Assembly (NCBI GenBank): GCA_022824945.1
Contig: JAJDYX010000018.1
Span: 62,001-126,000, forward strand
Source of the DNA: Candidatus Latescibacterota bacterium
GTDB lineage: Bacteria; Latescibacterota; UBA2968
Reading direction: 5' to 3'
DNA: 64,000 nucleotides
Both the position numbers and the translations under genes were made by a program. The notes beneath the pieces were generated by a model that saw nothing but the letters and a program-made list of their open reading frames with translations, did not search any database and had not been told where the DNA came from. Each line of letters opens with the position of its first letter. The stretch's first letter is position 1. Of this stretch, positions 46,019-63,798 are shown in pieces.

Positions 46019-46816
46019 TTAAAGTTTTTGTTCAAACTCATTTTTGATGCGAATTTTGTCGGCTGCATTTCCAAAGCCCAGGCTGAACCATCCTTCGTAG
46101 CCCATGGCGTTTAAGCGTTTGAAAAGCGCGTCAAAGTCGATGGTTCCTTCCCCGGGTACCAGGTGTATTTCATAATCGCCATTGTTGTCATTGACGCGTA
46201 CCTGGCCGATGTTATCTACGCCAAATGCGTCGAGAAATCCCGCCCAGCCTTCGGGCACGAGATGTCCGTGCGCGATGTTGAAAGCCCACTTGAAGTGATC
46301 GGATTGAATGGTATCAAAAAACCACTTTGTCTCTTCGACGTTGTGCGGCAAATAGTGAATTTCAGCGTGTTCGGGTTCCAAATTGTGGTTTTCAAAATAG
46401 ATCGCTACATCGGTTTTTTCCGCTCGGTGTACCAGTCGTTTCATGCGTTCTATGGCAGCATCGCGGCGAGGACCTGTATCGCCAAAATGATAGCCCCCAT
46501 GGCCGACGACCCAGCCACACCCCAACCGAACCGCGAGGTCAAAATTGGCGTTCACATAGTCATCGACTGCTTCGGATAAAATTGGGACATATTCGGCATT
46601 GTTAATGGCGGAAGAGGGATGTACGCCGATTTGCACTGCGTGTTTTTCGCACAGATCGCGAATGCGTTTTACGCGCGTATTGTCAAAAGAAGCGAGATTA
46701 TTTGGGGGCGTATCAGCCTGAAAGTCGATATAGCGAAATCCATTTTCTGCACCCCATACAATGCCTTCTTCAAGGGGTGTATTTTTGTCCATGTTGTATC
46801 CAAATCGCCCGCTCAT
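46019..46816 (-). CDS. Sugar phosphate isomerase/epimerase (TIM barrel)
   Basis: This 265-residue TIM-barrel protein has the AP_endonuc_2-like pattern: FRYIDFQADTPPNN, QIGVHPSSAINN, GCGWVVGHGGYHFG, DVAIYFENHNLEP, KWAFNIAHGHLVPEG, GQVRVNDNNGDYEIHLVPGEG and EGWFSLGFG. The Glu in FENHN, His in HGH and Glu in PGEG are the expected metal ligands. It belongs with isomerases and epimerases of small sugars. The ATG at 46816 has GGAG 6 nt upstream; another ATG at 46828 overlaps it. Confidence 0.87.
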   Translation of the reverse strand: MSGRFGYNMDKNTPLEEGIVWGAENGFRYIDFQADTPPNNLASFDNTRVKRIRDLCEKHAVQIGVHPSSAINNAEYVPILSEAVDDYVNANFDLAVRLGCGWVVGHGGYHFGDTGPRRDAAIERMKRLVHRAEKTDVAIYFENHNLEPEHAEIHYLPHNVEETKWFFDTIQSDHFKWAFNIAHGHLVPEGWAGFLDAFGVDNIGQVRVNDNNGDYEIHLVPGEGTIDFDALFKRLNAMGYEGWFSLGFGNAADKIRIKNEFEQKL

Positions 46817-46842
46817 TATTATCTCCATACAGTTGATTGTGA

Positions 46843-47355
46843 CTATGGATGAATGTCAATTGGCGTTCCGTCTTTTACAGAAGTCCAGATTTCATCCATG
46901 GCTTCATTCGATACGGCAATACATCCATCTGTCCAATCGCGTCCCAAAAACCAGTACCGATTCCACAGCGATGCCGATTTACCCGTTGGGTATCCGTGAA
47001 CCATGATGGCACCGCCTGGATTTACACCAAGGGAGTCTGCGCGTTGTTTGTCGGCTTTGTTTGGATAGGATATGTGAAGAGATAGATAGTATTTGCTGTT
47101 GGGGTTGCGCCAGTCCAATATGTAGCGGCCTTCTGGCGTCCGTGAGTCGCCTTCTCGTGTTTTATGGCCCTCAGGCGATTTGCCCAGTGCAATTGGATAC
47201 TGTTTGAGCACGCTATCGCCCTGGCACAATTGCAATATGCGCTTTTTTTTGTACACGACTACGCGATCTACATTGGGTATTTGCTCACCTGAAACGGGCA
47301 TTGCAAAAAGGAAAATGATAAATACGGTGAATAGTTTCCGATGAAAAAAAATCAT
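46843..47355 (-). CDS. L,D-transpeptidase (YkuD domain), exported
   Basis: This 170-residue protein has a signal peptide (LFTVFIIFLFAMPVSGE) and a YkuD catalytic domain. The active-site region reads GAIMVHGYPTG and then DWTDGCIAVSNEAMDEIW, with the catalytic Cys in DGCIAV and the His in HGYP. It cross-links or modifies peptidoglycan in the periplasm. Its start codon overlaps the stop of the serine-hydrolase gene by one base (TAATG), so the two are translationally coupled. No LysM or other wall-binding domain is present. Confidence 0.9.
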   Translation of the reverse strand: MIFFHRKLFTVFIIFLFAMPVSGEQIPNVDRVVVYKKKRILQLCQGDSVLKQYPIALGKSPEGHKTREGDSRTPEGRYILDWRNPNSKYYLSLHISYPNKADKQRADSLGVNPGGAIMVHGYPTGKSASLWNRYWFLGRDWTDGCIAVSNEAMDEIWTSVKDGTPIDIHP

Positions 47356-48554
47356 TACTCAGTCAGTGCCTGGTACACCAGTGTCTTAAATTCAGCGCGA
47401 ATGCGATAGTAATTTGCGGGCATAAATTGCGTGAGCAATAATCCGACGAGTTCTTCTTCATAATCGATCCAGAACGCAGTTGTTGCCGCGCCACCCCAGC
47501 GAAATGTGCCCACACTGCCGGGACCACCGGTGGCAGCATCGAGCAAGATCGCGCCTCCCAATCCAAAACCTTCACCCGACAGATTTGCCAGTCCCAGAGA
47601 GATGGGCATCAATTCATCGGGCAAGTGGTTCATCGTCATCAGTTCGACGGTTTTGCGCCCCAATAGCCGTACGCCTTGAAATACGCCCCCATTGAGCATC
47701 ATGTGGCAGAAGCGGATGTAATCAGAGGCTGTGGAGACCAATCCGCCGCCACCGGAAAAGAATTTTTGCGGACTGGAAAATTTGCTGGTCGCCGGGTCGT
47801 CAATTACTCGAATCCCACCTTCTTGTGCCGGGCCGTAATTTGTTGCAAACCGATGGCCCTGTCCCTCGCGCACCCAAAATTCCGTGTCTTCCATGCCGAG
47901 GGGATCTAAAATTTGCTCTCTGAAAAACGCATCGAGAGACATGCCGGAGATAACTTCGACAAAATGCCCGAGTACATCGGTCGATACGCTGTAGCGCCAG
48001 GCCGTGCCCGGTTGATTCGCCAGAGGTAGTGTTGCCAGTGTTTGTACCATTTCTTTTGTCGAGTGGTCTGGCCGATTAATTTTTGCCTGATTATACATTT
48101 GTTCGACGGGCGAATTGCCCATAAAGCCATACGTCAGCCCCGATGTGTGGGTCATCAAATGGCGAATCGTGATTTCTCGTTCCAGGTCCTCTGGGGGCAT
48201 GCCTGTACCGGCGAAGACTTGTACATCTTTTAATTCTGGAATAAAATCCGATACGGGATCGTCCAGTTGAAAAAGTCCCTCTTCAAAGAGCATCATGGCC
48301 GCGACAGTTGTGATGGGCTTGGTCATTGAATAAATCCGAAAGATCGTATCGCGCGTTGTGGGTACTTTTGTGTCTTGCGTTCCAAAACATGAAAAATGCG
48401 CGATTTTGCCCTGCCGACAAACCATCGTTATAATGCTGACGAGTTTGTCTTCGTCGATATAGCGTTGCATCAGGTGATTGATGCGGTGCAAGCGCGTAGC
48501 TGATAGTCCCACATCTTCTGGTGCAACGGTGGGAAGTCCTGGATCACTATTCAA
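47355..48554 (-). CDS. Serine hydrolase, beta-lactamase class C / EstB family, TTG start
   Basis: This 399-residue protein has the S-x-x-K motif FRIYSMTKPITTVAAMM with the nucleophile Ser, and a second motif YSVSTDVLGH in the position of Y-x-N. It matches the EstB/penicillin-binding-like serine hydrolases that cut esters, D-peptides or beta-lactams. No signal peptide is visible. The TTG start at 48554 has AAAGGAG 6 nt upstream. It is coupled to the L,D-transpeptidase gene, which hints at a cell-wall peptide role. Confidence 0.88.
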   Translation of the reverse strand: MNSDPGLPTVAPEDVGLSATRLHRINHLMQRYIDEDKLVSIITMVCRQGKIAHFSCFGTQDTKVPTTRDTIFRIYSMTKPITTVAAMMLFEEGLFQLDDPVSDFIPELKDVQVFAGTGMPPEDLEREITIRHLMTHTSGLTYGFMGNSPVEQMYNQAKINRPDHSTKEMVQTLATLPLANQPGTAWRYSVSTDVLGHFVEVISGMSLDAFFREQILDPLGMEDTEFWVREGQGHRFATNYGPAQEGGIRVIDDPATSKFSSPQKFFSGGGGLVSTASDYIRFCHMMLNGGVFQGVRLLGRKTVELMTMNHLPDELMPISLGLANLSGEGFGLGGAILLDAATGGPGSVGTFRWGGAATTAFWIDYEEELVGLLLTQFMPANYYRIRAEFKTLVYQALTE

Positions 48555-48589
48555 GATTTACTCCTTTCGACTAAAGTGTATATCGCTTT

Positions 48590-49738
48590 TCAATTCAGCC
48601 CGGACACCAGATCTGGCGGTATGGACGCGACGTGAATTTGGGGCTGTCCGCTCAGGTCGGATGTGAACACCAGCCACCGCATATCCGGAGAGGCGTAGGC
48701 GTGCGGATGCGCTTTTTTGACGAGAATTGAGGTGCGAGCGTCGCATACGACCGCATTTTTTCCCGTCTGGATGGATCCCAGTATGAGCTTGCCGGACCCC
48801 TGCCAGTCGTCGGCAAAAAAGTACTGGCCACACGGAGATGTCCCCAGGTGGTTAAACCGGTGCCCGCGCGAGACGACCCGGGGCGGTCCTCCGGCTTTTA
48901 CCCCCAGCAGATTGCCCTTTTCTGGGGTGTAGTCGCCTTCTGCAAAATACCATTCTTCGGGGCTGTGTAGCCCCCGGGCGTTTGGGGCACGGACCGTGAG
49001 CAATATCTCGTTGGTTCCCGCAATCCAGGCCTCGTGTCCCACGATGCTGGGTGTATAAGGTTCCCCCACCTGCAACCGCGTCACCTTTCCGCTCGGGATG
49101 TCCAGGAGAAATTCCGTGGCACCCTGCTTCCCGAAAATTACCGCCCTGGTACCGTCGGGCAGCACTTTGCACCCCCGGTTGTGCTGCACCATAATTTGCT
49201 TGCCCCAGGTGGGTTCGAACTGGGTGTGTGGGTTGCAAATATCCGGATCGGTGTGGATGAGATCCCGCGTACCGGTCTTCAAATCCAGAAGTTCGATCCC
49301 GAACATCTGGGGTTCCAGGCTGAGGGTCACGCCGTAGGCATAGTAGCGCTCGTCGGGAGATACTGTGTCCATCCCCCGGTGCTGAAAATCTTCGGGAAAT
49401 TCGAAAATCATCTCCCATTCGCCCGTGGCGAGATCAACCCGCCGCAGTTCCAGGCATTTCCCCTCCCGAACGTGGCGGTAGTAAAAGATCCCGGTATGGC
49501 TCATTCCCGGTGCCCGCAGCCCCTGTCCTATAACCTCGGACTTCCAGGTCCCGAATTCGCAGGTCACATATTCGGTATCGTTCGGGCCGGGTTTCGGATT
49601 TTGCCGTTCGTACACAAAAACCCGGGAGTCCGCCGAGCAATAGGGCTGTTCGCAGTAAATATTGGATTTTTCGAGTGGGTCATCGGTAATTTGATAGACG
49701 ACAGCGCCATTGGCCTCTTCTTCAAGTGTTTTAGCCAT
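48590..49738 (-). CDS. Oligogalacturonate lyase-like beta-propeller protein (PL22-like)
   Basis: This 382-residue protein has no signal peptide. Beta-propeller blades are visible: YCSADSRVFVYERQNPKPG, DTVSPDERYYAYGVTLS, ELLDLKTGTRDLIHTDP, QFEPTWGKQIMVQHNRG and YASPDMRWLVFTSDLSGQP. The set resembles oligogalacturonate lyases, which degrade short unsaturated uronides in the cytoplasm with a metal bound by His residues. The ATG at 49738 has AAGGAG 7 nt upstream; the longer frame to 49831 lies in the sulfatase gene. It sits right after a Tat sulfatase, which fits breakdown of sulfated uronic oligosaccharides. Confidence 0.78.
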   Translation of the reverse strand: MAKTLEEEANGAVVYQITDDPLEKSNIYCEQPYCSADSRVFVYERQNPKPGPNDTEYVTCEFGTWKSEVIGQGLRAPGMSHTGIFYYRHVREGKCLELRRVDLATGEWEMIFEFPEDFQHRGMDTVSPDERYYAYGVTLSLEPQMFGIELLDLKTGTRDLIHTDPDICNPHTQFEPTWGKQIMVQHNRGCKVLPDGTRAVIFGKQGATEFLLDIPSGKVTRLQVGEPYTPSIVGHEAWIAGTNEILLTVRAPNARGLHSPEEWYFAEGDYTPEKGNLLGVKAGGPPRVVSRGHRFNHLGTSPCGQYFFADDWQGSGKLILGSIQTGKNAVVCDARTSILVKKAHPHAYASPDMRWLVFTSDLSGQPQIHVASIPPDLVSGLN

Positions 49739-49764
49739 AGCTGGTCTCCTTTTTGATTGGGAGA

Positions 49765-51156
49765 TTACCCTTTGCGCCACCAGACGTTGGCATATTTGAG
49801 ATCTGGCGCAACGACGAGTTGGCGTTCCCATTCAATAAGACGTTCCCGGTGTTCTTTTAAAACAGATGCGTACTGTGGATCGGCTGACAGATTGCGAGTT
49901 TCACCGGGGTCTTCCCGCATGTCGAAAAGCTGATCGACTTCGTCTTTAGCATAGGCTATGTATTTGTAGCGACTGGTACGCACCATACGCCCCCGGTTGC
50001 TGTTGGACTCGCAGACGACGGCGTCATCCCAGGCTGGATCGGGTTTTGTCAACAGAGGGCGGAGGCTGCGACCACGCATGATTTCGGGTAGTGGAACGCC
50101 CGCGAAGTCGCATACCGTTGGGAAGATGTCCATCCCTGTGATGAGGTGTGAGGTATCGGTCTGGTTTTGCGGCAGGTGGCCCGGCCAGGAGATAATGAAG
50201 GGGACCGCCAGCGCTTCTTCGTAGAGCGAGCTTTTGCGTACGGTTTGATGATGGCCCATGCCTTCGCCATGGTCGGATGTGAAAATGACGACGGTATCGT
50301 TGAGATGGTCCGTGTCTTCCAGTGCCTGGAGAATGCGACCGATTTCGGCATCGACCATTTCGACATGGCGATAATAGCTCCACCGATAGTAACGCCACTG
50401 CATTTCGTCCCAGTTGCCTTTGGGGGGATCGCGTCGCTGACGGTTGCGCTTTACATAGTCGGGTTCTCGCGGGTCGTATTCAAAGTTGTCGGGCAACGGC
50501 GGTAGTTCGGGTTCAAGCTCTGCGTAGCGAAGCTGGTCGGGTGGGTAGGTGTTGATGCGCAGCCACTCGCAGATATCGTGGGGTTGGAGAAATGAGGCGA
50601 CCATGAAAAAGGGGTGATCAGATGTGCGATTGTGCAGATAGGTCTCACAGGCGCGCGAAGACGATGTGTCGCAAACATTGCCTTGTCCGCCGATGCCGGT
50701 GTTTATGACGTTGAATCCGGGTATAAAGTGCGTAAATCCCTCGGGAACGTGCCACTTGCCGGAATAAATCGTTTCGTAATCGGAATGCTGTGAAAGCCAC
50801 TGTCCGAGGTTGGGGATGTCTTCGCGGAGGGGGCGACCGTTGACTGGTACACCCGCTTCGGAGGACGTGCGTCCGGAGAAAATACAGCTTCGCGAAGGGC
50901 CACAAACCGGGTTGCCGCAATAAGATTGGGTGAAAAGTGTCCCTCGATTTTTCAGCTTGTCCAGTGCAGGCGTTTGGATATGAGAACAGTCTGCGGCGGA
51001 AATGGTGTCGAGGTGTTGCTGGTCTGTAAGAATCAATACAATATTGGGCATTGAAGGGGCCTCGGCGGCAAAGATGCGATTTTCCCGAGCTGTGAGCGCC
51101 AGTGCGGTGCCTCCGCTGATTTTCATGAAATCCCGACGGTTGATGGGTTCAAGCAT
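49765..51156 (-). CDS. Sulfatase with twin-arginine signal (CGPSR type)
   Basis: This 463-residue sulfatase has a Tat signal (NRRDFMKISGGTALALT), the only obvious export signal among the sulfatases here. The mature part starts NIVLILTDQQHLD and has CGPSR at Cys85, YSGKWHVP and TSDHGEGMGHHQT. Tat export fits a protein that must be folded and formylglycine-modified before leaving the cytoplasm. The ATG at 51156 has GGAGG 8 nt upstream; an earlier GTG at 51165 overlaps that site. Its start overlaps the preceding unknown gene by 8 bp, so they are coupled. It would desulfate sugars in the periplasm. Confidence 0.92.
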   Translation of the reverse strand: MLEPINRRDFMKISGGTALALTARENRIFAAEAPSMPNIVLILTDQQHLDTISAADCSHIQTPALDKLKNRGTLFTQSYCGNPVCGPSRSCIFSGRTSSEAGVPVNGRPLREDIPNLGQWLSQHSDYETIYSGKWHVPEGFTHFIPGFNVINTGIGGQGNVCDTSSSRACETYLHNRTSDHPFFMVASFLQPHDICEWLRINTYPPDQLRYAELEPELPPLPDNFEYDPREPDYVKRNRQRRDPPKGNWDEMQWRYYRWSYYRHVEMVDAEIGRILQALEDTDHLNDTVVIFTSDHGEGMGHHQTVRKSSLYEEALAVPFIISWPGHLPQNQTDTSHLITGMDIFPTVCDFAGVPLPEIMRGRSLRPLLTKPDPAWDDAVVCESNSNRGRMVRTSRYKYIAYAKDEVDQLFDMREDPGETRNLSADPQYASVLKEHRERLIEWERQLVVAPDLKYANVWWRKG

Positions 51157-51976
51157 CGCGATCACCTCCCGCGTATTTCCTGTGACGGCGCTTAAATGCG
51201 CGTGTTCCCCGAGTTTTCTGATGTGTTAAACGCCCTTCGGCATCGTCTGATAGGATGTAAGTGCGTGCGCCAGTGGTGACCATCTGGAGACGATGGCGAT
51301 CATCGAGCCAGTATTCATACGGCAACACACCGTGGCCGATCTGATGAAACCATTGCAGGGAAGGCCGGTTGTCCGCACGGGTGTACAGGCCGCGATAAGA
51401 CAGACGTTGATTGTATTTGTGTACGCTTAACCCTTCGAGGATATCGACGACAAGCGATGTTGAGGATTTGAACGGTAATCGCTGCACTGCTTCAAATAAG
51501 CACCAATCTGCGGTGATTGGGTTGACACCCGAAGCGATGCGCGTTCTGTTGTTGATCGTGATTTCCGCGGTCGTACCGTTGGCTTTTCCCGTTTCTTCCA
51601 GTGCTTGCGGATCACTTTGATTGGGGGCTGTGAATTGATTGGATAGCCGCCAGGAAACAGGGCTTGCAGCGAGGTCTTTCCGACAGATGATTTCTGCGGC
51701 GTACTTGTGTAGTCTGTGTTCGTCGTTGACGATTTCTCGATCGACCTGCAGGCGGAAGGTGTCGTCTGTATCGGGGGATTTCGAGAGGCGCAGAAGACCG
51801 ATGTCTTCATTGCCATCTTCCCGATAACCATGACAGGTCATGATGCGATAGGTATTGGTCCACTGACCATTTGGGTCAAAGTGTGCGGGTGTTTCTGGAA
51901 ATCCCTGAAGCAAATTCATGTCGCCCAGAAGATCGGGTACTAAGGGGTATCCGACAATAGTGCGTTTTTTTGCCAT
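51149..51976 (-). CDS. Hypothetical protein of the polysaccharide locus, 275 residues
   Basis: I do not recognise this protein. It has no signal peptide and looks beta-rich, with WTNTYRIMTCHGYRED, DDTFRLQVDREIVNDEHRL, YEYWLDDRHRLQMVTTG and a very basic tail (RGTRAFKRRHRKYAGG). GAGGAG lies 8 nt before the ATG. It overlaps the Tat-sulfatase gene by 8 bp and follows the agarase-like gene by 12 bp, so it belongs to the same operon and probably acts on the same glycan or its product. A lipocalin-like or sugar-binding barrel fold would be a guess. Confidence 0.6.
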   Translation of the reverse strand: MAKKRTIVGYPLVPDLLGDMNLLQGFPETPAHFDPNGQWTNTYRIMTCHGYREDGNEDIGLLRLSKSPDTDDTFRLQVDREIVNDEHRLHKYAAEIICRKDLAASPVSWRLSNQFTAPNQSDPQALEETGKANGTTAEITINNRTRIASGVNPITADWCLFEAVQRLPFKSSTSLVVDILEGLSVHKYNQRLSYRGLYTRADNRPSLQWFHQIGHGVLPYEYWLDDRHRLQMVTTGARTYILSDDAEGRLTHQKTRGTRAFKRRHRKYAGGDRDA

Positions 51977-51988
51977 AGGACATACTCC

Positions 51989-53449
51989 TCAATTTTTAGA
52001 AGTGCGACTATCAAAGTAGGATATTAGGGGATAAATCTGAGCGTTAATTTCTTTTGCTTTATCCACAAGATCTACAAAAGGCTCATATCGGATGCTTAAA
52101 AAACCCTTATTGGATCCGTTGGGCAAATCTTTTGTATCGCGATAAGTATGCCAGAACCAGCCGATACAGAATTTGGATTCCAGTAGTCCCAGAGTGAAGT
52201 TCTGATAAAATCGTCCGCGATCAGCCTGAGACTTGACCACGCCACCTGCTCCATCTGTATTTTTATATCCGGAATCCTCTCCTTTTACATACCACTCACT
52301 AATGATAAATGGTTTATCCCCAGACCAGGTGTTCCAATTTTTTAATTCCGATGTTCTGGGTGTCCAACGGTGATAATAATTTACCGAAATGACATCGGCA
52401 TATTCGCCTAAAGCTTCAAATACTGGCTTGAGGCGAATGGCCTGCCCATGCAACCGCGATCCCAAAAAGAGATGATTGGGGTCGCGGTTCTTGAGTACTT
52501 TAGATACAATGCTAAAATATAATCTGGCAATATACCCCAGAAATTTTTTCTGCTCATCAGAGGTCACACTTGATTTGAGCGTATCGATGTTGATATTTTG
52601 CGACTGAAGGTTTCTCTCTTTTTTTATCCATTCAAATGCCTTTTTAAAGTTGATATTCGATTGCTCCAGGCTGAGATACCGGGTCAAGGCATCCTCTCGC
52701 CAGGGAAGTTCATTATCTACAAAATATCCCAACAGTGTCGGGTCGTGAATCATCTCATCTGTTATTTTTTCTTTTACTCGATCTCTGCAAAATGCTTCAA
52801 ACTCAGGATCAAAAATCGGGATACAGTGATTTGGGAACTGCATGTTGTTTGCATTTGATTTTGCCCCATATCGCGTGCCAAAAGGATACATCATATAAAT
52901 GACAGTTGTCCATGCCTGCGGTCTGTTGTGTTGTGTGTTTAAAAGTAAAGGATCACTCCAGGTACCAACCACATTGAATCTGTTTGTTCTCAAAAAATCA
53001 ACGGTCTCATAAGCCCAGGTCTCGGGTTTTCCCCATCGGTGTTCAAAAACAGGTGGCGCTGTCACGCTCTTGTCTTTTGCTGCGCCCCACCGGATGGAAT
53101 TGAGTGCTGTGCAAAAAAACAGATATCCATCGGGGTCCACAAACCACCAGCGATTATCTATCTTCTGGATGCGAAAAAATCCTGTGCTCTCAATTTTTCG
53201 ATCTGCCCACCCGCCATAAGGACTGAGTTGTACCTCAGATTGGGATGTATAGTCGGGTAGCATACTCAAAAGACGTGTTGCATGTGGTCGATAAGATCCA
53301 AATATGCGGTTCCCTCTATAAAGCCGCATCCGCATATCCACCATCACATGCTGATTGGGATCGTCTTCCCAGGATTGAGCATGTAGATCTGTCACACTAC
53401 CCAATATCAATATTCCAATCAGAACCATACAGGTAACAATTTCACTCAT
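51989..53449 (-). CDS. Exported glycoside hydrolase, beta-agarase-like clan A
   Basis: This 486-residue protein has a signal peptide (MVLIGILILGSVTDLHAQ). WWFVDPDGYLFFCTALNS resembles agarase N-terminal modules. The putative acid/base is in LLGYFVDNELPW and the nucleophile in KPFIISEWYVKGED, the two glutamates of clan GH-A. VISVNYYHRW and CIGWFWHTYRD are typical barrel strands. Family members cleave beta-linked galactans or related polymers. GGAG precedes the ATG by 8 nt. It would act in the periplasm or outside, before uptake by the TonB receptor. Confidence 0.82.
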   Translation of the reverse strand: MSEIVTCMVLIGILILGSVTDLHAQSWEDDPNQHVMVDMRMRLYRGNRIFGSYRPHATRLLSMLPDYTSQSEVQLSPYGGWADRKIESTGFFRIQKIDNRWWFVDPDGYLFFCTALNSIRWGAAKDKSVTAPPVFEHRWGKPETWAYETVDFLRTNRFNVVGTWSDPLLLNTQHNRPQAWTTVIYMMYPFGTRYGAKSNANNMQFPNHCIPIFDPEFEAFCRDRVKEKITDEMIHDPTLLGYFVDNELPWREDALTRYLSLEQSNINFKKAFEWIKKERNLQSQNINIDTLKSSVTSDEQKKFLGYIARLYFSIVSKVLKNRDPNHLFLGSRLHGQAIRLKPVFEALGEYADVISVNYYHRWTPRTSELKNWNTWSGDKPFIISEWYVKGEDSGYKNTDGAGGVVKSQADRGRFYQNFTLGLLESKFCIGWFWHTYRDTKDLPNGSNKGFLSIRYEPFVDLVDKAKEINAQIYPLISYFDSRTSKN

Positions 53450-53535
53450 GCAGTTGTCTCCAGATGGAATACAGATTACTCAAGATGTTTCAATTTAGCT
53501 TCTTATACTAAAAAATCAAGGCTAAGCGGATATCT

Positions 53536-55557
53536 CTACCAGGTATGGATCCAGTGACCCCCCTCGGGAAACCAGATGAGGTCAACGATGGAGGAGGCGA
53601 CGATGCCAGCGACATACCCCACCGTGATACCGATAAAGAAAGGGGCGGCGCGGCGGTAGAGCGCGATCCCTCCGATGCGTAGCAGGATGAGTTTCGCTGC
53701 CCAGGTGAGGAATAGCGAAAAGGAATAGAATCGCAGGCCTCGTGTGTCTTGAAAGACCAACCCGAGCGGGTGAATTGGCCACCAGGGAAGACGGTTGCGC
53801 AGGAGAAGGAGGAGACCTGCCTCGAGGCCCCCGATCAGCCAGACGATCATTTTGCTGGGATCGAAGACAGTGCGATCGACGTGAAGGATGTCTGATCGCA
53901 TCGCATTGTAGGAACCAACGGGACCTGCGCTCGAGCTGAATGGCGCAAGGTGAAGGTTCTGTCCGCCGTAATGATAGGCGATATAGATGATAGAGACGAA
54001 TGAGGCGGCTATACCGACGACAAAGGCCAGCAAAGCCAGGTTAGGGAGGCGGGAAGATGTTCTGGTCTGTCCGCCGAGAAGCTTGAAGTGGTGGGGTAGT
54101 GCGGGCCACGCCGGTACGCGAGCGTTACCAAAGAAACCGCAGGAGTTCACCAATCCGATTCCGACGAGGTCTTTCCGGTCCAGATGCGCTGTGCCGACAA
54201 AGCTTGTCAGCAACTCTCCGCCTTTGGCTCCGTAGGGATTGGTGGTGGGGGAAAAGAGGTGGGTGAATCCGGTGGCAGCGGTGAATTTGGCCACAGTGAA
54301 GTAGGCAATATAGAGCAGGAGTGTGTGAAACACAGCAATCGGATAGGCCATGCCAATGGCGTGCATCCACCCGATGATGTAAATTGTGGCGGCAAAAAAC
54401 GCGATCAATACAGCGCGATAGCGTCTCTCATCACCCGCTATGCGGTTACCAGTGCGCGCCGACTGCCATACCTGGTGGAGATGCTCCCGTGTCGCCCAGA
54501 CCGACCATATTACGAGCAGTACCATAGCGCCGTGGCTTTCGATCTCGATGATCTGTTCGGGTCGGGCCTGCTGGCCCGCCATGCCGACAGAGAAGCCCGT
54601 CCGGTTCATCATGCCCAGTTTCAGGGTGGCGAGAAGTCGGATAAACCAGAAACTGAACAGAATATCGAGATCGCAGAAGTAGGTGAGTCCTACGACAGAA
54701 GGCAGAATGCGAATGGGGATGAACGGGTAGCCTTTGGCAATCTCTATCTGTTTGCTTCCGATGCCGCCATAGATGCCCAGAGGCGGTAGTTCGTGGAGGA
54801 AATAGCCCGCGATATTGTATAGAATGACGCCGAACACAGCGAAGAATCCCGCCCAGAAGATCTTTTTTTTGAAGATGGCAGGCACGCGGTCGCGTCCGTC
54901 GAACCCCGAAGTCAGGTAGATAGCGAACTGCCCGAGAGGATATGTCAGGCGCTCGGCGTCCTCCCATTGTCGCTGGAAGAGCATGCAGAGGCAGACTCCC
55001 GCGATAAACAGGGCAATGGATACGGTCCCCCACCAGAACATGGGTTTGATCCACCCGATCCAGGGTATCGCCATACCCGGAGAAAGACCGTCGAAGAAAG
55101 GTCGAATGACGCCTGTATCCGTATCTGTAAACGCCCACCAGGGAATAGCGCTGAAAAGGACCTCTTGCCACTGGTTTTCGGGAGACGCGTAATAGGTCGG
55201 GGTCGAGACGATAGTGGACCAGTAGGCTGCCCAGCCTTCAAGGGCAATGCCGGAAGAGATCCAGGACATACAGTAGATGACCAGAAGTTCTCTGCCGCTG
55301 AGGGCGGCGGAAGGAAAGAAGGCTTTCAGAACGATATTTACAAAGAGCCAGAGGAAGAAAGGTATCAGCATCGCCATGGGATATTGTGACTTTACCAGGG
55401 CGGAAGATCCCATGACCAGGCCTGCGTGATTGGTATAGATGTGCAGGGCAACGATGGTGACCACACCCAAGAAGACAGAGCGAGGCGTGATGAGAGCTAG
55501 CCTGGAGGTTTCGACGTTTTCTGTCGGATTTATCCCCGGTGTATCCAGTGATGACAT
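53536..55557 (-). CDS. Large polytopic membrane protein, DUF6785-like (second paralogue)
   Basis: This 673-residue integral membrane protein is related to the protein at 42318: shared features are MAMLIPFFLWLFVNIVLKAF, an FSAIPWWAF/FDGLSPG block, FWWGTVSIALF, ERLTYPLGQFAIYLTSG, LTYFCDLDILFSFWF and an end reading LIWFPEGGHWIHTW. It has about 14-16 hydrophobic segments. The ATG at 55557 has GGGA 7 nt upstream and gives a length close to the paralogue; another ATG at 55593 and the open frame to 55803 are unlikely. It follows a heparinase-like lyase gene directly, which suggests oligosaccharide import into the cytoplasm. Confidence 0.82.
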   Translation of the reverse strand: MSSLDTPGINPTENVETSRLALITPRSVFLGVVTIVALHIYTNHAGLVMGSSALVKSQYPMAMLIPFFLWLFVNIVLKAFFPSAALSGRELLVIYCMSWISSGIALEGWAAYWSTIVSTPTYYASPENQWQEVLFSAIPWWAFTDTDTGVIRPFFDGLSPGMAIPWIGWIKPMFWWGTVSIALFIAGVCLCMLFQRQWEDAERLTYPLGQFAIYLTSGFDGRDRVPAIFKKKIFWAGFFAVFGVILYNIAGYFLHELPPLGIYGGIGSKQIEIAKGYPFIPIRILPSVVGLTYFCDLDILFSFWFIRLLATLKLGMMNRTGFSVGMAGQQARPEQIIEIESHGAMVLLVIWSVWATREHLHQVWQSARTGNRIAGDERRYRAVLIAFFAATIYIIGWMHAIGMAYPIAVFHTLLLYIAYFTVAKFTAATGFTHLFSPTTNPYGAKGGELLTSFVGTAHLDRKDLVGIGLVNSCGFFGNARVPAWPALPHHFKLLGGQTRTSSRLPNLALLAFVVGIAASFVSIIYIAYHYGGQNLHLAPFSSSAGPVGSYNAMRSDILHVDRTVFDPSKMIVWLIGGLEAGLLLLLRNRLPWWPIHPLGLVFQDTRGLRFYSFSLFLTWAAKLILLRIGGIALYRRAAPFFIGITVGYVAGIVASSIVDLIWFPEGGHWIHTW

Positions 55558-55621: not shown

Positions 55622-57649
55622 TCAATCTTTCGACCAGGTGAAATCCCCTTCTTCCAGGACGGCGAGGTCGGGCACTCCCCGATGTACTTCCAATGCCGTC
55701 CGGAAGATGCGCGATTTGCCCTTTGCTCTGAGGAGAATTGTGCCTTTGCCATCTGGAATGGGGTTGCCGGGGGTCTGCGCCGATGTGATTTCGAAGGGAC
55801 CATCGGAAACGGCGAGCAGGCGCAGCCAAATCCGATCGGAAATTCGCCAATCTACGCAGAGAGTTCCGTCTGTGGAAGTGGTCTGGCGATTCCTGAGCCA
55901 GGCAAACACGCCGTAGTATGACAGAGGCGGGAAATCGAGGTCATCGATAACATTTGATGGACGAACAATCATGTCGCCTTTAGCATGAAATACCCACGCG
56001 TACCGGTGGATGGTATCGGATGTGCAGCGATCTTCGATCCATATACAGGGTGGTCCGAACCGGATGCGGCGTTCCAATTCCACACCCTCGTAAGCATCTT
56101 CGAGTACGGCAGATGCCAGTCGAGGATCTATTTCACGGAATTCCAGCCGGGCCTTTTCCACTGGCTGCTGATTCTGCTCATCTACCATCAGGGTGTTATG
56201 CGACAATGTGCTTCTGTAATAGGCATGGATGTCGCTGACAGCATAGCCCGCGGTGCCGAGGTCGGACGCGATTTGTACTCCGAGGGCCCTGAGATCGATA
56301 GACAGCTTATCGGGATGGTCGTGACCGGCTCCGTGCGCACCTCCTTTGAACAAAAGATAGAAAGGACCTTCGGCTGTGTCTTCCCGGAAGATGCCGAAGC
56401 CCATGGCCGAAAGATGGGTGGATTCCTGCGACAGCGGATCTGCATCGATCTCGTCAGGACCGAAGGCGAGTGCGGTCAGGCTGTTGCGGGGGATACCTCG
56501 CTTGTATATGGCACTGAGCGTTTCTGCGAACAGATCGCCGCCGAGTTGTCCAGCAGCGTATTCGTAAACGTGTCTGTAGATGGCCAGAGAACGTGAACCG
56601 GGCGATCCCAGGTCGCCTACGCATGGCAAGTCGAGATGCTGATCGCACATGTGTACGGGTGCTTCGAACAGCTTTTCAAAACGCGTCTGGATATCCTGGG
56701 TCACCTGACCTTGCTGGCGAAGCATTTCAAACACAGTGATCATGGGACAGACCGAGTAGAAATGGTAGAACATAGTCCCTTCAAACCAGAATCCATCCAC
56801 TTTGCCTTCCGAGTCGGTTCTCAATCCGTCGGTAAGTAGCGCAGATAGGCCTCCACGGTCACCGCCCAGACCCATTGAAAGCCAGTCTTCATGGCCGGTC
56901 GCCTCGCCGGAGAGAGCCAGGCACGCACCCACGTAACAGGTCATGTTGTGCGCGCCTGTACGTTCGAAAAATTGGATCTGCGAAGGCATCCCGGCCTCAA
57001 AGATCCCTTCGCGGATGGTTTGGTGGTCGGTGCTGGAATACACCTCGCTGTCGCGCGTCCAGGAGTAAGCATTAGCTATTAGAGCCAGTACCTGGGCATC
57101 GTAGAGCGGCTGGAAATAGAGAGCGTCACCGTGGTTCCCTTCGCGGAGATCTTCCCGGGTGAAGAACTGGGCTGCCAGACGCATCCCTTCGGCTATCCAA
57201 CTGGCATAGCATTCATCTCCGGTGAGGCCGTAGAGCAGTCCCAGGCTGCGCATAAGGCGATAGGTGCGTTCGTGGGTGAGCAGTGTCCAGGCCCGGTGTT
57301 GGACTTCACTTTCGTGGAGTGATTGGTCTGTGGGATCCAGAAAACGATGTGGGCTCTGGGGGTCATAGAGCAGGTGCTCGGCAGTGGTGTGCGAGTAGAA
57401 GTCGTGGCGCCACCCTATCCGTTCTTCGGGTAGCTGCGGTGGTTTTTTGAGTACAATCCTGGCTTCTTCTTGCATCTGTGAGAGGGAATCGGCGGCCCAT
57501 TGCAGTGTATCTATTTTTCTGCGGATCTCTTTTAGGCGTTCTGCGCCAAAGAAAATTGTCGGCCAGACATCCTCGATGACCATACCCGAGTCATAGGGCG
57601 ATAATGTGTAGGGCCATTGAAAGGAGGCGGTGGTATTGTCCCAGGTCAA
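55622..57649 (-). CDS. Heparinase II/III-like polysaccharide lyase, no signal peptide
   Basis: This 675-residue protein has an alginate-lyase-like helical N-terminal part (EERIGWRHDFYSHTTAEHLL, YRLMRSLGLLYGLTGDE, GNHGDALYFQPLYDAQVLAL) and a heparinase II/III C-terminal beta domain with GAHGAGHDHPDKLSIDLRAL, then IASDLGTAGYAVSDIHAYYR and STLSHNTLMVDEQNQQP. These enzymes cleave uronic-acid-containing chains by beta-elimination. It overlaps the PorV gene by 4 bp (TTGA) and starts with TTG at 57649. No signal peptide is visible, so it probably acts on imported oligosaccharides. Confidence 0.88.
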   Translation of the reverse strand: MTWDNTTASFQWPYTLSPYDSGMVIEDVWPTIFFGAERLKEIRRKIDTLQWAADSLSQMQEEARIVLKKPPQLPEERIGWRHDFYSHTTAEHLLYDPQSPHRFLDPTDQSLHESEVQHRAWTLLTHERTYRLMRSLGLLYGLTGDECYASWIAEGMRLAAQFFTREDLREGNHGDALYFQPLYDAQVLALIANAYSWTRDSEVYSSTDHQTIREGIFEAGMPSQIQFFERTGAHNMTCYVGACLALSGEATGHEDWLSMGLGGDRGGLSALLTDGLRTDSEGKVDGFWFEGTMFYHFYSVCPMITVFEMLRQQGQVTQDIQTRFEKLFEAPVHMCDQHLDLPCVGDLGSPGSRSLAIYRHVYEYAAGQLGGDLFAETLSAIYKRGIPRNSLTALAFGPDEIDADPLSQESTHLSAMGFGIFREDTAEGPFYLLFKGGAHGAGHDHPDKLSIDLRALGVQIASDLGTAGYAVSDIHAYYRSTLSHNTLMVDEQNQQPVEKARLEFREIDPRLASAVLEDAYEGVELERRIRFGPPCIWIEDRCTSDTIHRYAWVFHAKGDMIVRPSNVIDDLDFPPLSYYGVFAWLRNRQTTSTDGTLCVDWRISDRIWLRLLAVSDGPFEITSAQTPGNPIPDGKGTILLRAKGKSRIFRTALEVHRGVPDLAVLEEGDFTWSKD

Positions 57650-58629
57650 AATGCAATTCCCACTGAAAACCGGCTCACATTGGCGAAAAACTCGTTCCTG
57701 GTAAAGGAATAATCGATCAGGACCTGCCTCGCGCCGATACGTTGCTTTATGCCAGCTCCCGCGGTCAGGCTTTCCATGTCGTGATTAAACTTGTAGCCAA
57801 CCCGGAGTGCCAGCATCTCCTGAAACCAGTATTCTCCGCCCAGATAAATCCGCTCGCTGAAATCGCGCGGGTGGATGGCGTCAAATGCCAGCGATAGAGA
57901 GTGTGAGGGGGAGTCAAAGAGTTCCATTGCAGCGCCGATATGGAACGTCAGGGGAAGCTGAAAACCGATTTTCTGGTATTCGATTTCTGGCGAGAAGTTC
58001 CGAATGTAGATCCCCAGTCTCAGGCTCCTCAACCCGGTGTAGTAGATGGTCCCAAACGTGAAGTTTACCGCATTCGCTTTGTTATCAACGGCCACGTTGG
58101 ATGTCCCCGCGGGTGAGATTATGCTTGAGCCCAGGTGCTCGGACACATACTTGATCTGACCCCCGATGAAGAACTTGTTTGTCAACTGCTTGGAATAAGC
58201 AAGTCCCGCAAAATAGGCCCCCACATCGATGCTTCCCGTCTCGGTAAATCCCTTCTCGTTTCCGGCGACCTGCGTCCCGATCAATTCACCGTAATCGACA
58301 GCGCCGAAATTCACTGCAAAAACCCCGTGAGATGCCTTGTAGGCAGTCCCCAGTGCCGTATAGTTGATGTCCGCGATCCACTGGACTCGGTGTGCGGCCA
58401 TCTGGATCTTAGAGTCCATGCGGGCCATGCCGGCCGGATTGTAGAACATAGCATCGGCGCCGTCACCTACCATCGAATACGCTCCGCCCATTGCCTCCGC
58501 CCGCGCACTGAGACCAATCTTCAGAAATTGAAACCCCGTCTGAGCCAGTTTCTTCTTCTGTGCCTCGGCAGGTGTAACCAGGCATATAAACATCAACAGT
58601 ATTAGAGTTAAACAGATACATTTTTTCAT
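57646..58629 (-). CDS. PorV/PorQ family outer-membrane barrel protein
   Basis: This 327-residue protein has a signal peptide (CLTLILLMFICLVTPAEAQ) and the PorV/PorQ opening: FLKIGLSARAEAMGGAY, then DGADAMFYNPAGMARMD. It ends in SVGIAF with a C-terminal Phe, as outer-membrane barrels do. PorV-type proteins belong to the type IX secretion system or carry hydrophobic molecules across the outer membrane. The ATG at 58629 has AAGGAG 7 nt upstream; the frame to 58683 is only a low-complexity extension. It lies 28 bp after the CTD-containing protein gene and before the lyase gene. Confidence 0.9.
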   Translation of the reverse strand: MKKCICLTLILLMFICLVTPAEAQKKKLAQTGFQFLKIGLSARAEAMGGAYSMVGDGADAMFYNPAGMARMDSKIQMAAHRVQWIADINYTALGTAYKASHGVFAVNFGAVDYGELIGTQVAGNEKGFTETGSIDVGAYFAGLAYSKQLTNKFFIGGQIKYVSEHLGSSIISPAGTSNVAVDNKANAVNFTFGTIYYTGLRSLRLGIYIRNFSPEIEYQKIGFQLPLTFHIGAAMELFDSPSHSLSLAFDAIHPRDFSERIYLGGEYWFQEMLALRVGYKFNHDMESLTAGAGIKQRIGARQVLIDYSFTRNEFFANVSRFSVGIAF

Positions 58630-58657
58630 TGTATTTCTCCTTCTCCGGGACCGTCGA

Positions 58658-60793
58658 TTACCTGACGATGACGAATTTGACAAAGCTGGATTCTCCGCTT
58701 GGCGTCTCTACATGCGCGATATAGACGCCGCTGACAACGATCTGCCTGGTTTCGGTCGTCAAATCGCTCCAGGGTTCATCCCCCGAACCGTCCGTGTGTT
58801 CCAGGACTTTGATCAGGTCTCCACTTATAGTGAAGATACGGATTGTACATTCTGGCGGCAGCCCTGCGAACAGGATCTTGTCATTTTCTCCTGGGAACTG
58901 TAGGCCTGCCTCTGCTGCCGTAATATTGTAGGGATTGGGCACGACTCTGATATCGGCCAATGTATTCCCTGGTGCCCGTGTCAGAGAGACCGGTTCCGTG
59001 GTTCGGTTATACAGGATGCCGCTTTCGACGCTCTCGCCGGGTCGAAGTCCATTCTCGATGCCGGGCTGATTCTGCGACCCATCGTCAAACGCTGTGACGG
59101 CGTAATAATAAGAAACGCCCCGCTGGGCGGTGATGTCGTCAAACGAGTGGGCGATGTTTCCGGGAGACTCGTGGATCATCGTGAACGTCGTGTCGGGACT
59201 CCCAACCGCTCGATAAACCCTGTATCCGGCAAAGTCGGACGCGGATTCGGATTCGGATCCCCACAAAATCTGGACCCTATCGGGACGCCCCCATACCTCA
59301 ATGGACGGCGGTGGCGGAGCCTTGGGGACGTTGTAATTGTGTTGTACGGCCCACTCCGCGTTGTGGATGTTCTGGAACAGAGAGTCCTTACCCGTGGCGA
59401 CCCAGTTGTCTTTGGCGCGATCAACGGCTGTCGGAATGAGATCCGGGAACGCCTGGCCCACGGGCGGAATTTTGTCTTCGCCTTCCCAGGTCAGTGTTCC
59501 GTTTTTCCATCTTCGTCCGATATCCCACCTCATCTCGCGGGAGATAGAGCCGCCGACAACGGCGAATACCACCCGGAAATCATCACCGGCCTTCATCTCG
59601 TCGAACGGTCCCAGAGACATATAGATGGCCCCGCGTCCCTTCGTCGCATCTTGTACCCATTTGATCTTTCGCTCATCCATTCGCGACTGGTAGCGCACAC
59701 GGCCCTCGGCGGGAACGTTAAGGCCGAAGTAGTAAGCCTTCTGGCCCTCCACCAGTTCGGGAAAACCGTAGTGGAAGGAGCTATATTCCAGTTCGGTCAC
59801 CGTTGGATCGTTCTGGTCATGCTGTTGGGCGGTGGTGTATTTCTGCAGTCCGGATGCAAACACATGCGGCTGTTCTCGGTCGTCGGTAGGGTCGTCAACA
59901 GATTTGTCAACGTGTAGAATGGCGATGCCAACGTAGGATGGCTCTTTGATAAACCCCGTGGTAGGATCGGGATTTCCGAAGGTGTCGTATTGCTGGCCCC
60001 TGTTCCAGGCGGGATAATTGTAGGCGACCCGCAGCGAATCGCCTTCCTGTTCGCCATACGTTGTGCTCCATCCGAAATTCCCCATATCCTGATTCACCCA
60101 TGCAGCGAGGGCAAAATATACGCCATTCAGGGTCTGGGCGGGCAGATCCACCTGTATCCCGGACGGGGTCAGGTACTGGCCTGTGGTATTCTTAAAAGTC
60201 CAGTCATAAAGCACATAGTCGTCGTGGTTGACCTGCGAAAAAACGAACACCTTCTGATGGATCGTGATCCCGACCGAGGTTCGAATCCAGGATTCGATTA
60301 ACTGATCAGCGCCTTTTCCCCCACTCGAATCGATATAGTCTGGGTTGACTTCATCCCCTTCCAATGGAAAGAAGGGCTGGATGGGGGCGCCTTGAACGGA
60401 TATAGATGGAGGCTGGAACCTCACATACCTTCTAATCGTAAACCCATCCACATCGACGGGCATATTGTCAAAGGCCTCTTCACCGTTATAGACACTCGTA
60501 CCGCTGGTCTTGAAGCCCCAGGTGGCACCCTTCTCATCGGTCCAGTCCCTAACCGCAACCCTCCACGCGATATTCTCCATGAATCGGTTTCCATTGTAGT
60601 AGAATTGCCGATATGATCCAAGCGGCCTGGACATATCGCCGGAATCGAAAATGGCGCTCCACATTCGCCCGATTCTCACCCACTTGAACACATCTGCCCG
60701 GGCAGTATTGTCGAAGATCAGGAAGGCAATCAATCCAAAAACGATCGCCACCAGTGCCTTCGGGATCCTTATCCTTTTCACTGAATATTTCAT
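58658..60793 (-). CDS. Secreted protein with fibronectin-III-like domain and type IX-style C-terminal domain
   Basis: This 711-residue protein has a signal peptide (LVAIVFGLIAFLIFDNTARA). The N-terminal 480 residues are a large unrecognised beta-rich domain. A fibronectin-III-like domain follows (SIEVWGRPDRVQILWGSESE, GYRVYRAVGSPDTTF). The end is a FlgD/type IX-like sorting domain (IRVVPNPYNITAAEAG, CTIRIFTISGDLIKVL, SGVYIAHVETPSG, SSFVKFVIVR). It may bind the glycan at the cell surface in place of SusD and could be a client of the neighbouring PorV protein. AAGGA lies upstream of the ATG. No catalytic motif was identified. Confidence 0.82.
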   Translation of the reverse strand: MKYSVKRIRIPKALVAIVFGLIAFLIFDNTARADVFKWVRIGRMWSAIFDSGDMSRPLGSYRQFYYNGNRFMENIAWRVAVRDWTDEKGATWGFKTSGTSVYNGEEAFDNMPVDVDGFTIRRYVRFQPPSISVQGAPIQPFFPLEGDEVNPDYIDSSGGKGADQLIESWIRTSVGITIHQKVFVFSQVNHDDYVLYDWTFKNTTGQYLTPSGIQVDLPAQTLNGVYFALAAWVNQDMGNFGWSTTYGEQEGDSLRVAYNYPAWNRGQQYDTFGNPDPTTGFIKEPSYVGIAILHVDKSVDDPTDDREQPHVFASGLQKYTTAQQHDQNDPTVTELEYSSFHYGFPELVEGQKAYYFGLNVPAEGRVRYQSRMDERKIKWVQDATKGRGAIYMSLGPFDEMKAGDDFRVVFAVVGGSISREMRWDIGRRWKNGTLTWEGEDKIPPVGQAFPDLIPTAVDRAKDNWVATGKDSLFQNIHNAEWAVQHNYNVPKAPPPPSIEVWGRPDRVQILWGSESESASDFAGYRVYRAVGSPDTTFTMIHESPGNIAHSFDDITAQRGVSYYYAVTAFDDGSQNQPGIENGLRPGESVESGILYNRTTEPVSLTRAPGNTLADIRVVPNPYNITAAEAGLQFPGENDKILFAGLPPECTIRIFTISGDLIKVLEHTDGSGDEPWSDLTTETRQIVVSGVYIAHVETPSGESSFVKFVIVR

Positions 60794-60834
60794 GGCTTTT
60801 CCTTCCTCTTAACTGTCAGACACAGAACAGTTTT

Positions 60835-63798
60835 TTAAAAACTCATCTTGATTCCGAAGAAGATATCCCTCGGAGGCAAGAAGGTCGCGCTTTCTGCATT
60901 CGGCATTATGATATGGCTGTCCTCTCCCCCGATGGCCCCCATCCTGTCGTTCCCCACCGGATTTTCATAGGCTGGAGATTCGGGCAGGTTCAAGGATGTC
61001 ATATAGTCCTCCCTGTCGGAGGTGCTGACAAACCCCGCGCTCCCATTGAAGTGTTTCTGGTTGAACAGATTCGTAATATCCACAAACAGGCCGACATCTA
61101 CCCCTCTCGCCGCGAAGTCCTTGGATATCCGCGCGTTCCAGTTTGAGTAGTTCTCCCACTGGAGGTTGTTCTGGATACCTGGAATCTGGTTTGGATTGTA
61201 GGTGATCCAGCCCCCGGCTCTCCAGTTGTAGAAGAGGCTGAATCGAAATCTCTCCAGCGGCTTGAATCCGGCCACTTCTGGTCCGGAATCCGGGGGCACC
61301 AGGAGCATCACATTCGCCCGGAATGAGGGCCGGGTTTTAGGCCTGCTCTGGTATGGGTCCTGCAGGCCAAAAAGCCTGTGTTGAACCGGGTCCTCGTAGT
61401 AGTTCCGACGCCCGATAAACCCACTGGTCAGGACCATATAGTTGTAGTTCGCCCATCCTGTGAACCACTGCCCCACGCTTTTATCCACTCTGATTTCGAA
61501 ACCTCTGATGTCCGCGTAGTTGTTGTTTTCAATGGTGGTATAGACCACGCTTCCATCTACATTGTTGTAGGTGACATTGCCAGCCTGATCGGCGACATCC
61601 TTATAGTATCCGGCCAGATGAATGAGCACCGTATTGAACAGATTGTGGTCGTACCCCAGTTCATAAGCGATGGTTCGTTCCCACTCTGTGCTCGGGTTGC
61701 CCAGATAGGTTATCTTGCCCGGAAAACTCCTTCGGACGCCGTAGTAATGCTCTGTTCTGGGTATGCTGTAGAAGTGACCGTAGTTGAAATAAATTTTCGA
61801 ATTCACTGTGATGGGGTGCGATACGCCCAGCCGTGGGCTGAATTTGAGGTGGCTCTCGGCTGGCTCCGTGGGAACGACTTCCTCAAAGTCATCCTGGTAT
61901 TTCGCCGTCAGGAATTTGGAATAGCGATCCACCGAATACCAGTCTGTGGCGGGCGTGGCGTAATCCATACGAATCCCAATATTCGCGATCATGCCCTCCA
62001 CCTCCAGCTTGTCCTGGGCGTACGCGCTGAACCGTTTGGGGATCTTTTCGTACGTGTTGATCCAGGTGTAGGGTGTGATGCCCGGATTGTAGATGGCATT
62101 CCAGATGGCCATGTCGTTATAGACGTAGTGAAATCCCGCTTTGGCCTGATTGTAACGGCCGATCTGGCTGGTGATATCCGCCCGGATATTTGTGGTCGTA
62201 ATAATCGAGCTATCACGAGCCGTAGAAAGATGCATGCCCATACGCATTCCGTCCTGGGCTTCAATTGAATCAAACCACAAACCCAGCGGCGCTTCATCTA
62301 CCATCATTGGACCGAACTGGTATTGCAGCGTGCGGTCCCTGATGGGCAGAGCAGTTGTACGGTACTCGGATTCCATCCGATCTACCCTGAGGTTATAGAA
62401 AGTAGATCTGCCCAGCGTGTGTGTGAGTACGAAACCCAACGAGGTCCTATTGAGGCTGAACAGAGAAAACCTGGATGGTGTATAGATCGTTGCGCCGCTA
62501 TAGCTGGTCGCGTCCGCCAGTGCCTCGATGGCGTTGTCGTAATAGAGCCCTGTGTTGCCGTCTGCGACCGACTCGATATTGCTGTATCCTCCGACAACAG
62601 TGAGTTTCATTGATGGGATGATATTCACAATCAGCTTCAGCGTCGAGTTGTCTTCCCGATGGTTGTCCCTTGACATCGGATAGGGATAGACATTGATATC
62701 CGTACGGTGTGATGCAAAGAAGCTCAGCTTCCTGCTGCCGGGAATCAGCGGTCCGCCGATACTCGCGTCTCCAATATGGTCTGCTTTGTCCCCATCCTTT
62801 AAAGGGCGCGGTCCTCCTTCGGCGAATTTTCTGAACATAAATAGCTGCTGGGCCTCTTGGGGCGACATGTCATTTGAGGGATCGTCATCTTCTGTATATC
62901 GCCTGGATATCTCATTCCAGCCTACAAATTGCCTTTCCTGTAGCTGGGTTTCCTCGTCCCACTTGCCCGTACCTTCAAAGGCGACCTCAGGATCGAGAAA
63001 AGCCCGCAGATAGTAGTTATCTGCGCTATACCAGGAGGGCCCGAAATGCTTTTTGGCAGGTGGGCTGTACCGATAATCAACCGACCCGTGGTAACGGTCC
63101 TGGGCAGATTTTGTGATCACGTTGATCACACCTGATCTCACATTCCCGTATTCTGCATTGAATCCACCGGTGATAATCGAGATCTCCTGCACGGCACTCA
63201 GGTTGAGGGAGGTCAGCGCGGGTCTGTTCACCCGTTCATCCACCATCAGGATACCATCCACCATCATCGCGACCTGATTCTGTCCACCCCCTCGGACCAC
63301 CATATTCTCGATTCCCGGCTGCGTGTTCAGGAACTGCTCGACCTTCACAATCGCAGGGATCTCTCTCACCAGCTCACCCTGGGCGATTACTTCGCTGGCG
63401 GAAACGTCCATCTGGACCACTTCCTTTTCTGCCATTACTGTGATCTCCTGCCCCTCTATACTACTAACCTGCAATGAGAAGTTGACAGGAACCGTACGTC
63501 GTCCCTGCACCAGCACGTCCGTTTTGCTCACAGTCGTGTATCCGACCATGGATGCCCGCACCACATGCTTGCCCGGTGAAACGTTCAGGATGTTGTAAAC
63601 GCCTTCCGCATCGGTTGAAGCCCCCAGTGATGTACCTTCGATGATCACGTTCGCTCCCGGTAGGGGATCTCCGGTCTGCGCGTCTGTGACGACACCGCGG
63701 ACCTTACCTGTCTCTTGAGCAAACAGGTCTCCCTGCACAAGGAAGAGGGAAAGCGCAATGCTGAGTAGCGGTAGAAAACACCTTCTTATCTGTTCCAT
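60835..63798 (-). CDS. TonB-dependent outer-membrane receptor with carboxypeptidase-regulatory-like N-domain
   Basis: This 987-residue receptor has a signal peptide (LLSIALSLFLVQGDLFAQ), a CarboxypepD-regulatory-like domain (KVRGVVTDAQTGDPLPGANV, SLGASTDAEGVYNILNVSPG), a plug domain with VVRGGGQNQVAMMVDGILM and GFNAEYGNVRSGVINVITKS, and a 22-strand barrel that ends in PPRDIFFGIKMSF. It imports a ligand across the outer membrane with TonB energy. No SusD gene follows; instead the CTD/FN3 protein and PorV do. GAGGAG lies upstream of the ATG. It heads the carbohydrate operon. The gene is full length; the leader extends past the window's last gene. Confidence 0.94.
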   Translation of the reverse strand: MEQIRRCFLPLLSIALSLFLVQGDLFAQETGKVRGVVTDAQTGDPLPGANVIIEGTSLGASTDAEGVYNILNVSPGKHVVRASMVGYTTVSKTDVLVQGRRTVPVNFSLQVSSIEGQEITVMAEKEVVQMDVSASEVIAQGELVREIPAIVKVEQFLNTQPGIENMVVRGGGQNQVAMMVDGILMVDERVNRPALTSLNLSAVQEISIITGGFNAEYGNVRSGVINVITKSAQDRYHGSVDYRYSPPAKKHFGPSWYSADNYYLRAFLDPEVAFEGTGKWDEETQLQERQFVGWNEISRRYTEDDDPSNDMSPQEAQQLFMFRKFAEGGPRPLKDGDKADHIGDASIGGPLIPGSRKLSFFASHRTDINVYPYPMSRDNHREDNSTLKLIVNIIPSMKLTVVGGYSNIESVADGNTGLYYDNAIEALADATSYSGATIYTPSRFSLFSLNRTSLGFVLTHTLGRSTFYNLRVDRMESEYRTTALPIRDRTLQYQFGPMMVDEAPLGLWFDSIEAQDGMRMGMHLSTARDSSIITTTNIRADITSQIGRYNQAKAGFHYVYNDMAIWNAIYNPGITPYTWINTYEKIPKRFSAYAQDKLEVEGMIANIGIRMDYATPATDWYSVDRYSKFLTAKYQDDFEEVVPTEPAESHLKFSPRLGVSHPITVNSKIYFNYGHFYSIPRTEHYYGVRRSFPGKITYLGNPSTEWERTIAYELGYDHNLFNTVLIHLAGYYKDVADQAGNVTYNNVDGSVVYTTIENNNYADIRGFEIRVDKSVGQWFTGWANYNYMVLTSGFIGRRNYYEDPVQHRLFGLQDPYQSRPKTRPSFRANVMLLVPPDSGPEVAGFKPLERFRFSLFYNWRAGGWITYNPNQIPGIQNNLQWENYSNWNARISKDFAARGVDVGLFVDITNLFNQKHFNGSAGFVSTSDREDYMTSLNLPESPAYENPVGNDRMGAIGGEDSHIIMPNAESATFLPPRDIFFGIKMSF

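Follow-up and report, generated by a model that had tools for sequence, protein, structure and literature searches.

The closest described systems are the SusCD loci of Bacteroidota, the type IX secretion system (T9SS) with its attachment machinery of PorV, PorZ and PorU, and the OPT family of transporters, whose members of known substrate transport oligopeptides or metal chelates. Searches for glycan uptake loci routinely rely on SusD, and phyla lacking it are then taken to have none. In characterised T9SS, PorV binds type A C-terminal sorting domains (CTDs), and in Bacteroidota it shuttles or anchors T9SS cargo (PMC11205867). The xylan locus of Rhodothermus marinus contains a TonB receptor gene followed by one for a CTD-bearing hypothetical protein (Rmar_1070-1071), which are not discussed as a pair or unit in the paper describing them and which share the locus with a classical SusCD pair (PMC6987092). 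For Latescibacterota, the published analyses found by open-access text search (PMC4454575 and PMC12993501) make no mention of SusCD or type IX secretion, and a search of the same kind found no paper on DUF6785. Here we analyse a window of 64,000 nucleotides (bases 62001-126000 of contig 15) from the 5.49 Mb genome of a Candidatus Latescibacterota bacterium, in which SusC-SusD has probably been replaced by an outer-membrane uptake triad with a T9SS-delivered, PorV-held partner, linked here to a glycan-degrading set.

Results

The window contains a minus-strand run in the order TonB receptor, CTD protein, PorV, lyase, DUF6785 protein, GH50-like enzyme, a protein of no recognised family and sulfatase. 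The triad consists of a TonB-dependent receptor of 987 residues (60835-63798; Pfam PF13715/PF13620/PF07715), laid out as signal peptide, CarboxypepD_reg-like N-terminal domain, plug and barrel; a CTD surface protein of 711 residues (58658-60793); and a PorV-family outer-membrane protein of 327 residues (57646-58629), a dedicated paralogue scoring 195 bits against the PorV/PorQ family model NF033709 (curated cut-off 90). These are followed on the same strand by a heparinase II/III-fold lyase (55622-57649), a DUF6785/DUF6784 membrane protein that is a predicted OPT-fold transporter (53536-55557; PF20581, 287 bits), an exported GH50-like glycosidase of 486 residues (51989-53449), a 275-residue protein without signal peptide and with no Pfam or NCBIfam match (51149-51976), a sulfatase with predicted Tat export (49765-51156) and a beta-propeller (48590-49738). 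Start sites were improved for PorV (58629), DUF6785 (55557) and the propeller (49738). N-terminal signals, assigned by eye, were seen on the receptor, CTD protein, PorV and GH50-like enzyme, and none on the lyase or the propeller. The genes described in the sequence-only reading are all present, on the minus strand and tightly packed, its longest gap of 86 bp is that at 53450-53535, and its assignment of export signals to the glycosidase and sulfatase, and of none to the lyase and propeller, agrees with ours. The range that it named also holds genes for a beta-lactamase, a YkuD protein and a TIM-barrel protein (46019-48554) that it did not list. Elsewhere in the window are a second DUF6785 gene just outside the cluster (42318-44306, plus strand), a resident found in every congener examined, and a subtilase with DUF1573 and HYDIN/ASH-type Ig domains (38221-41109).

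The lyase carries the heparinase II/III C-terminal domain (PF07940, 78.9 bits) and matches PL17 structures (E ~1e-12). In alignment it retains N201, Y258, H413 and H415 of Alg17c, with Met at the position of H202 and the loop of Y450 absent. The catalytic residues of Alg17c include N201, H202, Y258 and Y450; because H202 and Y450 are missing, the residue pattern of PL17 oligoalginate lyases is incomplete and that label cannot be read off, and the search for a PL family ended without a possible assignment. Outside the genus, the lyase has its nearest homologue in G018 (67%), where it lies away from any triad, and lyase and triad are therefore separable. Residues 58-480 of the GH50-like enzyme align to 5t3b (phmmer against PDB chains, E 8.5e-55), with further matches to the beta-agarases 4bq2, 6xj9 and 5z6p, these entries being GH50 structures; the acid and nucleophile regions 'GYFVDNE' and 'IISEWYVKGED' are aligned, as in GH50. 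The sulfatase (PF00884, 161 bits) has the C-x-P-S-R formylglycine motif and a Tat motif, RRDFMK, scoring 20.4 bits with Pfam TAT, just under the cut-off of 22.7, and its nearest structures are 3b5q and the 2-O glycosaminoglycan sulfatase 5g2t. The propeller matches the oligogalacturonate lyase (OGL) family weakly (PF14583, 22 bits against a cut-off of 30; 3pe7).

No SusD-family gene was found in the locus, including beside the receptor, which bears out the earlier claim of a SusD-less locus, and the receptor itself falls below the SusC/RagA cut-off (TIGR04056, 50 bits against 368). A single SusD locus occurs elsewhere in the genome (C14:149043); its one SusD-like gene and the receptor of that gene (C14:149046-153273) are retained in most genomes of the genus. 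SusD is nearly absent across the phylum, being present in 13 of 64 Latescibacterota genomes at one copy each, and PorV-family genes occur in all 64 (4-29 copies). The T9SS translocon SprA is encoded on contig C28, over cut-off at 648 bits with neighbours in frame, and the CTD protein has the two marks of T9SS cargo, a signal peptide (by eye) and a C-terminal sorting domain. The idea that PorU is missing, and that CTD proteins stay on PorV for that reason, was rejected in that form on finding a C25 peptidase of 1906 aa at C8:48818. This sole C25 peptidase (PorU-like; C8:48818-49888) lies in the 1906-aa frame with a weak CTD and adjoins no PorV, unlike in other Latescibacterota families, where a shorter C25 gene adjoins PorV; the pair was apparently lost in this order.

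To place the CTD protein structurally, an AlphaFold model (pLDDT 84.3) was compared by Foldseek, giving matches to the GH94 N-terminal domain, FN3 and PorZ (5m11). Judged from aligned lengths and known domain layouts, the GH94 matches, to cellobiose phosphorylases, lie over the N-terminal sandwich and PorZ toward the C-terminus, with FN3 pairs also matched; the layout reads signal peptide, GH94-like beta-sandwich, helical linker, FN3 and type IX CTD. The GH94-like match covers a single domain (TM ~0.2 of the whole) and is one of fold only, because Pfam even at relaxed E-value gave no GH94-type domain. A PorZ-CTD model (HMM) matches 30 of 56 homologues at their end and the window protein itself at only 19.6 bits, and none of the 56 has a SusD-family match in Pfam or NCBIfam. 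The CTD protein is thus predicted to combine a GH94-like beta-sandwich, FN3 and a PorZ-like CTD, unlike SusD.

Genome searches starting from the receptor, from the CTD protein and from the PorV family converged on the same places, and gene calling around the matches identified 14 cassettes with receptor, CTD protein and PorV in fixed order. The CTD profile alone found 15 strong places, every one beside a TonB receptor, before scores fell from 92 to 24 bits; these are the 14 cassettes and one at receptor C46:185886. At this last site (C46:185304-186518) the order is reversed, the CTD protein being upstream of the receptor, and PorV is absent. Distance matrices of the 14 receptors, CTD proteins and PorVs agree (Mantel r 0.84-0.88, p 5e-5). 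The earlier proposal that the CTD protein is the surface partner of the receptor is supported by this one-to-one genome-wide linkage and co-evolution, together with the predicted beta-sandwich related to the GH94 N-terminal domain. A conserved outer-membrane beta-barrel protein of approximately 236 aa is encoded directly upstream of 8 of the 14 triads (L071:8192-8890, L072:9573-10283, L074:9168-9941, L075:9285-10016, L076:18707-19426, L077:17037-17750, L078:7357-8175 and L079:9015-9725), and is a possible fourth component. Several triads adjoin no recognised glycan genes, so glycan import may not hold as their general role.

A scan of public genomes with the receptor alignment as query yielded 77 loci in KSB1, Neomarinimicrobiota, Ignavibacteria, Calditrichota, Rhodothermales and others. 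The CTD protein comes next after the receptor in 89 of the 90 foreign receptors with enough sequence, and since the loci were selected by receptor only, their neighbouring genes are an independent finding. PorV then follows the CTD protein in 54 of 66 foreign pairs (39 immediately); the other 12 have no PorV within 2.2 kb, suggesting that PorV may be shared. Candidatus Latescibacterota isolate 277c_43 has a receptor that shares 96% identity with the one in the window. The architecture, which had seemed undescribed, is wider than supposed, with the triad reaching several FCB-group phyla and extending beyond glycan loci.

The AlphaFold model of the DUF6785 protein (pLDDT 80.5) is that of a helical membrane protein whose only significant fold match in the PDB is the OPT transporter YS1 of barley (7wsr; Foldseek E 1.1e-7, TM 0.61/0.67). 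A Pfam scan gave no OPT family match, and a DUF6785 profile search against solved chains found no chain. There are 40 DUF6785 genes in the genome; 13 of them have a triad within 10 kb (2.6 expected, p 8e-7), and 10 of the 14 triads have a DUF6785 gene within that distance. The suggestion that DUF6785 mediates import gains support from the predicted OPT fold.

Comparison of gene order with relatives showed the order kept in congener G037 at 92-96% amino-acid identity, although there GH50 and DUF6785 are separated by one additional gene and two more adjoin the propeller. In G030 the order is kept in part, from receptor through DUF6785 up to its contig end. The full-cluster order is known from these close relatives only. 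The gene run is not due to chance, because its order is conserved in G037 and G030 and the triad recurs 14 times. Three of 11 genus genomes carry the cluster (the window genome, G030 and G037), and an empty site in G029, G031 and G035 consists of the propeller, a mandelate-racemase-type gene, tRNA-Val and a gene that is presumably rplS, identified, like trmD, by its sequence. The propeller occurs without the cluster in G029, G031 and G033-G036; being present at empty sites, it is a resident gene, as are those to its left. It does not, as had been proposed, belong to the acquired pathway, for it lies beside the same beta-lactamase and a mandelate-racemase-type gene in cluster-free congeners. 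In G037 the mandelate-racemase-type gene is intact between GH50 and DUF6785. In the window this mandelate-racemase/muconate-lactonizing-type (dehydratase-like) gene is gone, and alignment with G037, G029 and G031 identifies the 86-bp gap as the scar of its deletion, with about 60 bp of upstream leader left. A tRNA-Val(tac) lies next to the island just outside the window (64111-64187; L003), and truncated tRNA-Val copies ending in the anticodon loop occur in G037 (2014246 and 2025611) and G030. Those in G037 flank a second triad and DUF6785 gene, as expected of integration at a tRNA. A left att copy of the tRNA was looked for in the window and none was found. The tRNA-Val site occupied by the island is an integration hotspot.

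Discussion

In the mechanism that we favour, the CTD protein would be exported by the type IX secretion system and passed to, or kept by, its own PorV paralogue on the cell surface, where ligand caught by the beta-sandwich and FN3 domains of the CTD protein would go to the receptor for TonB-driven uptake. The exported GH50-like enzyme and sulfatase would cut and desulfate the glycan outside the cytoplasm, DUF6785 with its predicted OPT fold is the best candidate for moving the product over the inner membrane, and the lyase, having no leader, would complete degradation in the cytoplasm. The cluster was acquired at the tRNA-Val hotspot beside resident sugar-acid-type genes. We infer the formation of a complex by the triad, its ligand, the direction of transport and the substrate. 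A bolder version, to which we give slightly less than an even chance, holds that the triad is a widespread three-component alternative to SusCD in the FCB group, with a T9SS-secreted lid or binder on its own PorV, and that DUF6785 forms, in Latescibacterota, a new branch of the OPT fold that transports glycans.

The same genes could be read otherwise. The CTD protein and PorV might form a general display unit for an adhesin or enzyme, the receptor importing an unrelated metal chelate or vitamin and the operon reflecting co-regulation only; the shuttling and anchoring of T9SS cargo by PorV in Bacteroidota (PMC11205867) and the reading of TonB receptors of the phylum as importers of vitamin B12 and iron (PMC4454575) agree with this. 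We consider this unlikely, given that in this genome the CTD subtype always lies beside a TonB receptor, that in nearly all foreign loci the CTD protein comes directly after the receptor even where PorV is lacking, and that the distance matrices agree strongly. Import of peptides or glycopeptides, with the sugar enzymes as chance neighbours, draws on the fold match of DUF6785 to YS1, from a family known for oligopeptides and metal chelates, and on an M60 peptidase near another triad. It appears somewhat less likely again, for this locus combines its triad with a heparinase-fold lyase, a GH50-like enzyme and a sulfatase, and sulfatases also lie downstream of triads C35 and C34. A strongly diverged SusD, in an ordinary SusCD locus, is suggested by the position of the CTD protein directly after a receptor with a CarboxypepD_reg-like N-terminal domain, and is nevertheless very improbable: the model of the CTD protein shows a beta-sandwich, FN3 and CTD in place of the helical TPR fold of SusD, and its homologues are likewise free of SusD-family matches.

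The uptake triad, as we read it, ties TonB import directly to type IX secretion and provides a signature by which nutrient uptake can be searched for in Latescibacterota, KSB1, Neomarinimicrobiota, Ignavibacteria and Calditrichota. It may be a widespread way of cell-surface feeding and, as judged from open-access text, one that may so far be unnamed. Its linkage to DUF6785 also offers a testable substrate class for this domain of unknown function.

Compared with the SusCD loci of Bacteroidota, the triad likewise has a CarboxypepD_reg-like receptor beside the gene for an exported partner, many paralogous sets per genome and, at this locus, linked glycan-active enzymes (GH50-like, sulfatase and heparinase-fold lyase), whereas the partner is a T9SS CTD protein of another fold with a dedicated PorV, and the receptor scores below the SusC/RagA threshold. 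It resembles SusCD by position, multiplicity and enzyme linkage, yet has no SusD-family gene next to the receptor. With the type IX attachment machinery it shares the PorV family, a PorZ-like CTD and the SprA translocon, and differs in having one PorV paralogue and a private CTD class per receptor instead of one PorV for all cargo. DUF6785 resembles the OPT family (YS1/YSL) in its predicted fold, which matches barley YS1, and is set apart by the lack of a sequence-profile match to solved chains and by its linkage to sulfatases and glycosidases. The R. marinus locus is alike in gene arrangement, in that a gene for a CTD-bearing protein follows a receptor gene among glycan genes, and unlike in its classical SusCD pair.
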